Shown piece by piece: positions 8,778 through 13,514 of a stretch of DNA of 64,000 nt. How positions within the stretch are numbered: the first letter of the stretch is position 1; each line of letters opens with the position of its first letter. The stretch covers positions 1,550,001 to 1,614,000 of the forward strand of contig NZ_CP011104.1 of NCBI RefSeq assembly GCF_001010285.1, in the 5' to 3' direction. The notes beneath the pieces are model-generated. The model worked only from the letters and a program-made list of their open reading frames with translations. It was not told the DNA's origin and did no database searches. The stretch comes from Photorhabdus thracensis (GTDB taxonomy: Bacteria > Pseudomonadota > Gammaproteobacteria > Enterobacterales > Enterobacteriaceae). A program made the translations under genes and the position numbers.

Positions 8778-8948
8778 CGAATAATATCTGCTGTTTTATT
8801 AATTCGTCAGCTAAAACAATAACCCTAACACAACTCTATTATCAACATTTAACATCTTCTGCTCAGTTTCACCGCTGAACTCACTATTTTTGGCCTGCAA
8901 CAGATTATGCTATACTGCGACTCCTTGCAGCATAAACTAATTTCCGCC

Positions 8949-10106
8949 ATGGCAACTTCTCTCGATCTCAATCTCTTGGTCACAAGCATCAAACAATGGG
9001 GCCTCTCTCTTGGTTTTCAGCAAGTTGGCATTTGTGATATTGATTTATCAGCAGAAGAGCCGAAGCTCCAGGAATGGCTGGATAAACAGTATCACGGTGA
9101 AATGGCATGGATGAAACGCCACGGTATGATGCGTACCCGCCCAAATGAACTGCTGCCAGGAACATTGCGCATCATTAGTGTAAGAATGAATTATCTCCCT
9201 GCCAAAGCCTCTTTTGCCAGCACACTCAGTGATTCTACACTCGGTTATATAAGCCGTTACGCTTTGGGAAGAGATTATCACAAACTACTGCGCCAACGTC
9301 TGAAGAAACTGGGTGAACAAATTCAAGACTATTGCCATGACTTCGAATATCAAGGCATCCTTAATTTCCGGCCTTTTGTTGATTCTGCACCAATAATGGA
9401 ACGCCCACTAGCTGCTAAGGCCGGATTAGGCTGGGTTGGTAAACACTCGCTTATCCTTAATAGAGAAGCTGGCTCATGGTTCTTTCTTGGTGAACTACTG
9501 ATAAATCTTCCCCTACCTGTAGACACGCTACAGGAAGAACAATGTGGCCGCTGTGTGGCCTGTATGACAACCTGCCCAACAGGTGCAATTATTGCTCCTT
9601 ATACCATTGATGCCCGCCGTTGCATTTCTTATCTCACGATTGAATTGGAAGGTGTTATTCCTGAAGAGTTTCGCCCACTGATGGGAAACCGCATTTATGG
9701 TTGTGATGACTGCCAGATTATTTGTCCGTGGAACCGCTTTTCCCAACTAACAGATGAAGGTGATTTCAGCCCCCGGGCAACATTACATACGCCGGAATTA
9801 TTAGATTTATTCAATTGGAGTGAAGAAAAATTCCTGCGAATAACAGAAGGTTCTGCAATCCGCCGTATCGGGCATTTACGCTGGTTACGCAATATTGCGG
9901 TTGCCTTGGGAAACGCACCATATCAAGACAACATCGTTCTATCTCTGCAACAGAAACTAGGATTAAACACAATGCTTGATGAACATATTCATTGGGCTAT
10001 TGACCAACAAATGACTCGCCGGGCAACCAATACTGTCAATGTACAAACTTCTCAACAAAAACGGCTTATCCGAGCGATAACCAAAGGCTTACCCAGAGAT
10101 GCTTAA
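8949..10106 (+). CDS. queG: QueG, epoxyqueuosine reductase
   Basis: Cobalamin-dependent iron-sulfur enzyme that reduces epoxyqueuosine to queuosine in tRNA. Two 4Fe-4S clusters are visible: CGRCVACMTTCPTGAI, and CDDCQIICPWN with an additional upstream Cys. I chose ATG 8949 (MATSLDLN), giving 385 aa. An in-frame ATG at 8907 would add 14 atypical residues. It is transcribed away from tsaE, and the spacer after its 3' end carries the datA-like site. Confidence 0.95.
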   Translation: MATSLDLNLLVTSIKQWGLSLGFQQVGICDIDLSAEEPKLQEWLDKQYHGEMAWMKRHGMMRTRPNELLPGTLRIISVRMNYLPAKASFASTLSDSTLGYISRYALGRDYHKLLRQRLKKLGEQIQDYCHDFEYQGILNFRPFVDSAPIMERPLAAKAGLGWVGKHSLILNREAGSWFFLGELLINLPLPVDTLQEEQCGRCVACMTTCPTGAIIAPYTIDARRCISYLTIELEGVIPEEFRPLMGNRIYGCDDCQIICPWNRFSQLTDEGDFSPRATLHTPELLDLFNWSEEKFLRITEGSAIRRIGHLRWLRNIAVALGNAPYQDNIVLSLQQKLGLNTMLDEHIHWAIDQQMTRRATNTVNVQTSQQKRLIRAITKGLPRDA

Positions 10107-10123
10107 TTATTAACCATCCTGGC

Positions 10124-10391
10124 AGTGTATAAAAAAATTCAAATAATTTTCCTGTGAATAAAATAAAAATTCCTTGCTGATCAATGCTCAAAAAAAGCGC
10201 AAGTGATCAATATGGTATTTCTTAATGAAGGACTATTCCGAAAAACTATCAATAACTTATAGGAGAAACATTGATTTTATAAAATGTAAGATCAGGAAAA
10301 TCTGAAAGAAACAGCCTGTGGATAAGTCTGTGTGGTAATTTTAAGGTGTCGTACTTATTTACCAGGAAATCACTTTCTATTCTGTGGATAA
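10124..10391. promoter_or_regulatory. Candidate datA-like cluster of DnaA boxes with an IHF site
   Basis: In the 450-base spacer after queG, three 9-mers fit the DnaA-box consensus TTATNCACA on the minus strand: 10153-10161 (TGTGAATAA as written), 10317-10325 and 10383-10391 (both TGTGGATAA). A one-mismatch box lies at 10124-10132. A perfect IHF consensus, TATCAATAACTTA, lies at 10247-10259 between the left and right boxes. From memory, E. coli datA, the DnaA-ATP hydrolysis/titration locus, lies next to queG and glyVXY and also has an IHF site between DnaA boxes. Function here is inferred from boxes plus synteny. Confidence 0.6.
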
Positions 10392-10557
10392 AAAATAGAA
10401 ACCAACACCGAACCCTATAGCCCAAAAATCGAACCAAAATAAGCGAGTATTATCATTGGGGAAGAAACTTGGAGAGGGAAGCAAATCGTTTGAATCCCAC
10501 TTAACTTATTGATTCAACAGATATTTTTAAATAGATCATCGTTGAAAGGAGTGCATT

Positions 10558-10683
10558 ATGTACCACCCTCAAAAGTTTGGCAAGCAGAAGTTGAAAAAAC
10601 TTTCGGAGTTAAAGGATCATGCCTTTCCCCTTCCTGTGTGTCCTGTGCCAAAGAAAGACAGAGAACCTATAACCAAGCAATAA
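10558..10683 (+). CDS. Possible 41-aa lysine-rich small protein, unrecognised
   Basis: A 41-codon frame starts with ATG behind a strong ribosome-binding site (AAAGGAG, 6 bases before the start). The product is basic and Pro/Lys-rich (begins MYHPQKFGKQ) with no family I recognise. An overlapping 100-codon frame from 10509 in another phase lacks a comparable ribosome site. The surroundings are gene debris, so this may be a fragment. The call rests on the ribosome site alone. Confidence 0.3.
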   Translation: MYHPQKFGKQKLKKLSELKDHAFPLPVCPVPKKDREPITKQ

Positions 10684-10955
10684 CTCTTAACGGACAAACA
10701 TCATACATTCGGAATTTTTTAGCACAAAACGCCATGAATATAAGAACCCCAGATGAGCATCTGCAAATCAAAAATTGGAGCGGAAAAATGCAACTCACGG
10801 TAACTAACTAAAAAATAATAATTTTTCCTACTTTGCTTCATATCCGTAGACTTGTTTGTTCTGCTTTTCAAAAAAAGCTGCATTTGCTTAATTGGTTCAG
10901 TCATTTTACAATCAATTTATTGACTTTTTATAGTCTATATTTAGTCTTATTCGAT

Positions 10956-11243
10956 GTGAGGGATTCTACGCGTTATTCAGAACAGATTAAACCAATCAGC
11001 TACCTTAAAACCAATGCAGCTGCGGTGATGACGACACTGGCAGAGTCCCGCTCACCGATGATTATTACGCAAAATGGTGAAGCGAAAGCGGTCATTCAGG
11101 ATATTGCCTCTTATGAGCAGACAAAGGAAACCATAGCATTGTTAAAGATTTTGGCTTTAGGACAACAGCAGGTTAAAACAGGTGAAATCACACCGGTAAA
11201 GGATGTAATTCACCGTTTAAAGAATAAAGAGAAGTTCACCTGA
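10956..11243 (+). CDS. YefM/Phd-family antitoxin
   Basis: A 95-aa protein beginning VRDSTRYSEQIKPISYLKTN, read from a GTG at 10956. The pattern (DNA-binding N-terminal fold, then ESRSPMIITQNGEAKAVI and a toxin-wrapping C-terminal helix) is that of YefM/Phd antitoxins paired with ParE/RelE toxins. The frame is open to 10833, but the extra 41 residues are hydrophobic, have no family match and include no nearer ATG. The stop overlaps the start of the broken toxin gene, as is usual in such operons. With the toxin destroyed it is probably a solitary remnant. Confidence 0.8.
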   Translation: MRDSTRYSEQIKPISYLKTNAAAVMTTLAESRSPMIITQNGEAKAVIQDIASYEQTKETIALLKILALGQQQVKTGEITPVKDVIHRLKNKEKFT

Positions 11244-11369
11244 TGTCATATAAAGGAGGTATTAACTAAAGACGCCGAAGCGGATTTAGAGGATATTTAC
11301 GATTATATTGTCGAAAATGACAGTCCTGGGAAAGCCGATTATGTATTGGAGCAGTTGCTGAGTGGTTAG
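11243..11369 (+). pseudogene. ParE/RelE-type toxin, frameshifted and truncated
   Basis: The ATG at 11243 overlaps the antitoxin stop and reads MSYK, then hits a stop after 8 codons. Shifting phase around 11254 restores a toxin-like sequence (TKDAEADLEDIYDYIVEND, then SPGKADYVLEQ) until a stop at 11367. Full-length toxins of this family have about 95-105 residues, so both a frameshift near the start and loss of the C-terminal half have inactivated it. Confidence 0.8.
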
Positions 11370-11404
11370 ATTTTCCCGGTAGGTGTTAATAGCATTCAAT
11401 TACC

Positions 11405-11620
<216 letters not shown>

Positions 11621-11667
11621 ATTACTGACTAATTATAGTCTGAAACAACATAACCGACTTAAAACTT

Positions 11668-11743
<76 letters not shown>

Positions 11744-11799
11744 GTCACTGACTTGGCTAATGATAGCCTGAAATAACATACTGATTACAAATCGAAATT

Positions 11800-11875
<76 letters not shown>

Positions 11876-12715: not shown

Positions 12716-13514
12716 TTAGTGGGCGACGGCTGATCGCTCTGCGTCTGGTTCCTGCTTCAACGGGCGGCCTGATTGCTCCGTCCCTCCACAGGCAAGCACG
12801 GCATGCCCTGCCGCTAACATGTTACGAGCGCCGTTTACATCTGCGTTCGCGGTATATCCACACACCTGGCACACGAATTTACTCTGTGACAATCGGTTCT
12901 CTTTTGCTGTATGACCGCAACATGCGCACCGCTGGCTGGTGTATGCCGGAGGGACTGCCAGTACCTGACCGCCGCGCCAGCGCTGCTTATATTCTAGCTG
13001 ACGGCGCATTTCATACCAGCCCTGATCCAGTATCGCGCGATTTAAGCCTGTTTTAGCCCCAACGTTCCTTCCGGGCTGTTCTGCCGTGCCTTTCGCTGAC
13101 TTCGACATGTTACCGACCTTCAAATCTTCAATCACGATCATCGCGTGGTTTTTGCTTATTTTCGTGGTGGGGCTCAGCGGCTTCTATCTCGACTTGAAAC
13201 GACACATACCACTGACCCGCTGACTGGCTGATCGTGGCATTTTTGATTTTGCCGTTCACCTCCTGCGGTTGAAGGTTATCGGTGTAAGCTTCCTGTAAGA
13301 AGGCGTATTCCGGTGTTTTTTTCCACCCCGTGAGCATGCGGTTTAGTTCAAACGCAGAGGGAAGTTTTCCGCCGGAATCCAGAATGTGTTTTGTTACCTC
13401 AAGGCCGTGATCCCAGACAAAACGAGCACACCCGCATAACTGTCGCAAACGCGGCGACTGTTCTTCAGTTGGCTCTAGTCTGAACTTGTAGGCTTTCAGT
13501 ATTAGCATTATCAT
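12716..13514 (-). pseudogene. tnpB: TnpB (IS605 OrfB), internally deleted and frameshifted
   Basis: The N-terminal piece (13128-13514) reads MIMLILKAYKFRLEPTEEQ and joins abruptly to VNGKIKNATIS; about 60 residues of the usual N-terminal region are missing. A second deletion with a phase change joins it to the C-terminal piece (12716-13141, MIVIEDLKVGNMSKSAKGT). That piece retains the zinc finger CACCGH...CQVCGY and the last RuvC Asp (NADVNGARN). The segment that should hold the first RuvC Asp is absent, so no RNA-guided nuclease activity is expected. Confidence 0.88.

Follow-up and report, generated by a model that had tools for sequence, protein, structure and literature searches.

Does the non-coding DNA beyond the end of queG in Photorhabdus thracensis hold the datA element of this chromosome? 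datA is a site in E. coli that helps to switch off the initiator protein of chromosome copying. In the literature covered, as far as its text was available, datA is a system whose workings were elucidated in E. coli, and the available text of the literature searched yielded no description of it in Photorhabdus. The window analysed here is a stretch of 64,000 nucleotides of the P. thracensis chromosome (contig NZ_CP011104.1, positions 1,550,001 to 1,614,000), and positions are counted from its first letter unless they are said to be chromosomal. An earlier note on this DNA had proposed a candidate datA next to queG and tRNA-Gly, composed of three consensus DnaA boxes, one near-match and a perfect IHF site. 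The explanation that best accounts for the features listed below, and a very probable one in our judgement, is that the locus represents datA of the Photorhabdus chromosome.

10383–10391, minus strand: DnaA box 1 (TTATCCACA), exact consensus; nine of nine bases invariant among 12 genus members
10329–10337, minus strand: position aligned with DnaA box 7 (TACCACACA), three mismatches
10317–10325, minus strand: DnaA box 2 (TTATCCACA), exact; TTATCCACA is found in 60 of 60 aligned loci
10247–10259, minus strand: predicted IHF-binding site TAAGTTATTGATA (consensus YAANNNNTTGATW), exact and oriented as in E. coli
10162–10220, minus strand: conserved block within the spacer from the IHF site to box 3, recognised in the footprint of 41 loci from other genera
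10153–10161, minus strand: DnaA box 3 (TTATTCACA), exact and equal to E. coli box 3; invariant in 12 genus members
10124–10132, minus strand: near-match box TTATACACT, judged to lie outside the element; found in 2 of 12 genus members
8907–10106, plus strand: queG (Pfam QueG_DUF1730), convergent towards the putative datA
11545–11875, minus strand: three tRNA-Gly(GCC) genes (ARAGORN), equivalent to glyV-X-Y, 1,219 bp from box 2
10392–11544, no strand: DNA between the putative datA and the tRNA operon, holding a Phd/YefM antitoxin ORF
10833–11243, plus strand: Phd/YefM antitoxin ORF, reading away from the putative datA

The core of the proposal is borne out by the letters of the window. Exact matches to TTWTNCACA occupy 10153–10161, 10317–10325 and 10383–10391, all of them on the minus strand, and an exact IHF consensus (WATCAANNNNTTR) stands between the boxes at 10247–10259. 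Read from the tRNA genes towards queG, the order is box 1, a box 7-like site, box 2, 57 bp, the IHF site, 85 bp and box 3. The site at the box 7 position, TACCACACA, lies 3 bp upstream of box 2 in the same direction and, with its three mismatches, is expected to be of low affinity. Two parts of the proposal had to be amended. The fourth, near-match box does exist as a one-mismatch site (TTATACACT, 10124–10132), but it is altered in 10 of 12 genus members and was for that reason excluded from the element. Likewise, queG ends at 10106, 46 bp from box 3, and the nearest tRNA-Gly begins at 11545, so that queG is adjacent to the element and the tRNA operon, which lies 1,219 bp away from box 2, is not. 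A second exact match to the IHF consensus was observed at 10502–10514, in the opposite orientation and some 110 bp further out than box 1.

Between glyY and queG, E. coli MG1655 carries, in order, ATATCCACA (box 1), TTGTAAACA (box 7), TTATCCACA (box 2), the IHF site and TTATTCACA (box 3), followed on the other strand by box 4, TCATCCACA. We infer which published box number belongs to which of these sequences; the assignment fits because the order agrees with that given in the available text of PMC5742627 (box 7, box 2, IHF site, box 3), and because boxes 7 and 3 of MG1655, with everything between them, span 183 bp, the length of minimal datA given there. The same text also gives 262 bp, and that available of PMC10380432 gives 187 bp for datA.

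The window agrees with this arrangement in order, direction and neighbourhood; the earlier note had placed the element where E. coli has datA. The gaps on the two sides of the IHF site are 56/84 bp in E. coli and 57/85 bp in the window, that is, within 1 bp; box 2 and box 3 are identical in sequence; and in both chromosomes datA lies beside queG, convergent with it and ori-proximal. The distance from box 1 to box 2, start to start, is 67 bp in E. coli and 66 bp here. The differences are equally definite. The tRNA-Gly operon is 85 bp from box 2 in E. coli, as against 1,219 bp in the window; E. coli box 7 ends in AACA, whereas the site at its position here ends in CACA; and the spacer from the IHF site to box 3 holds one GATC in E. 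coli and two, 26 bp apart, in the window. Box 7 is essential in E. coli according to the available text of PMC5742627. For box 4, which is stimulatory and not essential in vivo in E. coli, the window has no equivalent within two mismatches, and by eye it is also missing from many rows of the 60-locus alignment described below. A direct DNA comparison of 10107–11544 with E. coli genomes gave no match; homology therefore rests on architecture, neighbourhood and intermediates.

Other chromosomal elements combine DnaA boxes in related ways. Both DARS1 and DARS2 carry DnaA boxes, and DARS2 also an IHF site, but in the DARS cores boxes I and II are in opposing orientation (PMC8682772, available text), whereas the three strong boxes of the window all point in one direction. 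A sequence of Photorhabdus luminescens homologous to DARS2 is named in the available text of the same source. oriC also has DnaA boxes around an IHF site, and that of this genome is located elsewhere, at about 1,918,053–1,918,454 of the chromosome, as placed by similarity and by its neighbours mioC and mnmG. datA and oriC are 358 kb apart, a separation equal to 7.0% of the chromosome, compared with 10.1% in E. coli.

The protein partners of the E. coli system are encoded in this genome. One DnaA scores over the family cut-off and, within domain limits that we assume, it is identical to the E. coli protein at 212 of 217 positions of domain III and at 120 of 120 of domain IV; IHF alpha and beta are both present, over their curated cut-offs. 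Arg281, Arg285, Leu290 and Arg334, which the available text of PMC5742627 names for datA-dependent hydrolysis, are conserved in this DnaA. By analogy with E. coli, we infer that Photorhabdus datA would sustain DnaA-ATP hydrolysis.

Within the genus, the arrangement is strictly maintained. The three boxes and the IHF site are found with gaps of exactly 57/85 bp in 12 of 12 Photorhabdus genomes, with box 1 starting 66 bp before box 2 in 11 of them and 67 bp before it in one. Boxes 1, 2 and 3 are invariant at 27 of 27 positions across the 12 members, which provides the conservation in relatives on which the earlier note had made its reading depend, and the IHF site is invariant at 9 of 13; in the rest of the interval from box 1 to box 3, 127 of 199 positions are invariant. 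The box 7 position reads TA[TC]CACACA in all 12, and both GATCACTTG and TTGATCA[AG]CAA, which belong to the conserved block listed above, are present in all 12. In every one of these genomes, the spacer from the IHF site to box 3 holds two GATC sites 26 bp apart; a pair with this separation would suit SeqA.

Beyond the genus, conservation was followed from queG. Among 109 genomes of the family searched, 67 other than the window's own had a queG match, and from these 64 loci were drawn, one per genus, which together with the window and E. coli make a set of 66 (G039, G043 and G062 were left out because their queG match was broken or cut off). The architecture, defined as at most one mismatch per box, at most two in the IHF site and gaps of 54–59 and 80–88 bp, is present in 60 of the 66 queG-adjacent loci; the six that lack it were left out of the alignment. 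The spacing is exactly 56/83 in 41 of the 60. When all gap pairs between 10 and 150 bp were counted, 56/83 was the commonest (42 loci), and the next, 123/83 (21 loci), is formed by box 1, at whose place a box with at most one mismatch stands in 40 of the 60 loci. In 41 genomes no queG match was obtained, and the 20 of them that were listed measure 0.4–2.4 Mb except G042 (3.7 Mb). This last genome (locus L248) has a strong match to the datA profile, with an E value of 2.1e-26, yet no queG match.

A loose pattern blind to genes, which permitted gaps of 50–65 and 75–95 bp, matched 21 of 198 genomes of the family and 15 of 394 of the order, and its reversed version none in either; the strict letters are thus kept in a minority of genomes. 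These matches comprise 29 distinct loci, of which 24 lie beside queG, all with gaps of 55–57/82–85 bp. The remaining five belong to family f8, are not beside queG and represent the only matches outside the family of the window. These five (L049, L050, L051, L052 and L053) match the loose pattern away from queG, L049 adjoining a TRAP gene and a polA-like gene, and L052 a TRAP gene.

A profile built from the 60 loci, the window among them, finds a single match in the window's own genome, at the datA locus (E 1.3e-21), and, within the family of the window, reaches E values of at most 1.3e-12 in 30 of 34 genomes, some of these loci being members of the profile. Outside the family its best E value is 1.8e-7. 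Although 227 of 394 genomes of the order pass an E value of 0.01, most of the scores listed outside the family are near 20 bits and probably reflect chance. Thirteen of the better matches outside the family were inspected. Loci of families f5 and f21 have kept queG and parts of the arrangement. In one genus of family f8, five loci (L265, L268, L269, L270 and L274) carry a datA-like element with no queG in the surrounding 5 kb; it consists of box 7, box 2, an IHF-like site 56–58 bp further on and box 3 about 95 bp beyond, the distance from the IHF site to box 3 being longer by about one helical turn. In L265 and L268 this element lies between what we recognise as a TRAP transporter gene and a polA-like gene. 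Taken together, the datA geometry is present in most of the genera surveyed in the family, which suggests that the mechanism described in E. coli is ancestral there.

Could so regular an arrangement have other causes? Matches to the IHF consensus, and to a relaxed DnaA consensus, abound in AT-rich DNA, and the further exact IHF consensus at 10502 illustrates how a cluster of DnaA boxes with an IHF match might arise by chance in an AT-rich intergenic region. However, dinucleotide shuffles of 10107–10440 contained at least three exact boxes in 1 of 20,000 cases and the box-IHF-box architecture in 0 of 20,000, the loose architecture pattern has a single match in the 5.147 Mb genome (none for its reversed control), and the arrangement is conserved across genera, all of which makes an origin by chance scarcely credible. 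In a genome-wide count of DnaA boxes, a check that the earlier note had called for, TTATNCACA is found 214 times against 97 for the reversed control, and among the matches listed, which extend to chromosomal position 2,989,185, three copies within 300 bp are found at this locus and in the oriC region only.

Function is a separate matter, since boxes that bind DnaA could act as a passive titration site that lowers the free pool of the protein without IHF-dependent hydrolysis. DnaA would bind anyway to three strong boxes so near oriC, and box 7, without which hydrolysis fails in E. coli, is weakly matched here. Titration needs no fixed spacing around an IHF site, though, and the 57/85 gaps are kept in 12 of 12 genus members, while the gene-blind search returned the narrow range of gaps in 24 of 24 queG-side loci despite the wider ones that it permitted; we consider titration alone improbable. 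Less probable still, indeed very hard to sustain, is the idea that the boxes were simply inherited and the element has been inactive in the genus since its tRNA control partner moved off. The displacement of the tRNA operon by 1.2–9.7 kb in 12 of 12 genomes and the missing box 4 speak for such a relic, but boxes without a single change in 12 species, next to surroundings in which 72 of 199 positions vary, do not, and five other loci whose tRNA lies 479–966 bp off retain the architecture. Counting against the datA reading itself are the three mismatches in the box 7 equivalent, the absence of box 4, the tRNA displacement in 12 of 12 genomes and the f8 loci away from queG. On balance, the identification as datA made in the earlier note is supported, and the element is best regarded as an ortholog of the known datA; what draws attention is the geometry kept across the family, the separation from the tRNA genes and the conserved block.

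The separation from the tRNA genes sets Photorhabdus apart from most of the aligned loci. In 41 of the 60, a distance of 72–105 bp separates the end of the last tRNA-Gly from box 2, and in six it is 479–1,219 bp; in the other 13 no tRNA-Gly was seen in the upstream sequence at hand, about 1.4 kb in nine of them and 149–715 bp in four. Across the genus, the distance from tRNA-Gly to box 2 is 1,217–9,738 bp in 12 of 12 genomes. In the window, the tRNA-Gly triplet is still the next tRNA on the side away from queG, and a simple scan from the tRNA genes to datA, on the tRNA strand, found one terminator-like site, fewer than in shuffled sequence. With the tRNA operon 1.2–9.7 kb off, the E. coli mode of control, in which tRNA read-through governs IHF release, probably does not hold unchanged; because the operon is far away in the genus, IHF release in Photorhabdus would not be driven by read-through from a nearby tRNA. 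Photorhabdus therefore bears something akin to the insertion described in the available text of Kasho et al. 2024 (PMC10950094), with datA intact. The genus amounts to an experiment made by nature: its tRNA operon was displaced, and datA stayed whole. As for the DNA in the gap, the sequence past the Phd/YefM ORF (within 10833–11400) may, by eye, represent a broken toxin partner.

The other feature that emerged from the alignment is the block, about 60 bp long, in the spacer from the IHF site to box 3; in the window it includes GATCACTTG (10200–10208), TTGATCAGCAA (10174–10184) and a T-rich tract. Its conservation was measured in a footprint of those 41 loci, each from a different genus, whose spacing is exactly 56/83; the window and E. 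coli are not among them. Since these loci were picked by their boxes and IHF site, conservation of the latter is partly by construction, whereas that of the block is not. Mean information per position is 1.87 bits in box 2, 1.65 in box 3, 1.44 in box 7 and 0.87 in the IHF site (1.13 over its nine specified positions); it is 0.10 at positions 11–52 of the spacer between box 2 and the IHF site, and 0.92 in the block, from +100 to +160. Conservation of the block is therefore roughly on a par with that of the IHF site, and it far exceeds that of the other spacer. Its parts differ somewhat, with 1.03 bits from GTTA to GATCRCTTG, 0.55 from +122 to +136, 1.11 in TTGAnnnnCAAnG and 1.15 in the T tract. 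GATCRCTTG is present in 44 of the 60 loci, and TTGAN4-5CAA in 51.

The block also served as the starting point of a search. Its exact motif was found in 111 stretches among 84,980 genomes, with box 3 at the expected place in 111 of 111 and box 2 in the 110 that have enough sequence, one being cut by a contig end. All tests, including those for the IHF site and for queG within 400 bp, hold in 97 of the 111; among the others, nine lack an IHF site within two mismatches and eight lack a queG match within 400 bp, four stretches being shared between the two groups. The 80 stretches with a name all come from genera that we take to be Enterobacterales.

Several candidate roles were tried. For an RNA hairpin or terminator, RNAalifold on the 41 ungapped loci returned no consensus structure in either direction; single blocks of 75 bases from E. 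coli and the window fold at -12.7 and -14.1 kcal/mol, respectively, as raw single-sequence energies. Searches of the block for IHF, Fis, LexA, CRP and Tus consensus sites gave no consistent match (the Fis site at +152 is exact in 0 of 41 loci). Nor does the DnaA consensus account for the block, although two features stand as candidates for its role: a 9-mer at +138, counted from box 2, that weakly resembles a DnaA box (a mean of 3.0 mismatches over the 41 loci), and a GATC at +113, found in 34 of 41.

The available texts of PMC10950094, PMC5742627, PMC10380432, PMC13036160, PMC4585315, PMC8682772 and PMC12371093 give no function for the block; mutagenesis work in E. coli may touch it. According to the available text of Kasho et al. 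2024 (PMC10950094), an unknown factor is required for the timely release of IHF from datA, and the conserved block sits where such a missing factor could act. In Photorhabdus, the block may contribute to assembly of the complex or to the timing of IHF. It is conceivable, though rather doubtful, that the block is the binding site of that factor, or alternatively a second, low-affinity array for ATP-DnaA that does the same job, and that it would time datA where no tRNA read-through is nearby, as in Photorhabdus. The displaced tRNA operon and the conserved block thus provide two tests of how IHF leaves datA on time.

Further along the window, beyond the tRNA genes and near orn, two ORFs on the minus strand at 12716–13514 seem to represent a single IS605-type OrfB gene that has been split: one matches the C-terminal part of the protein (Cas12f1-like_TNB) and the other its N-terminal part (HTH_OrfB_IS605).
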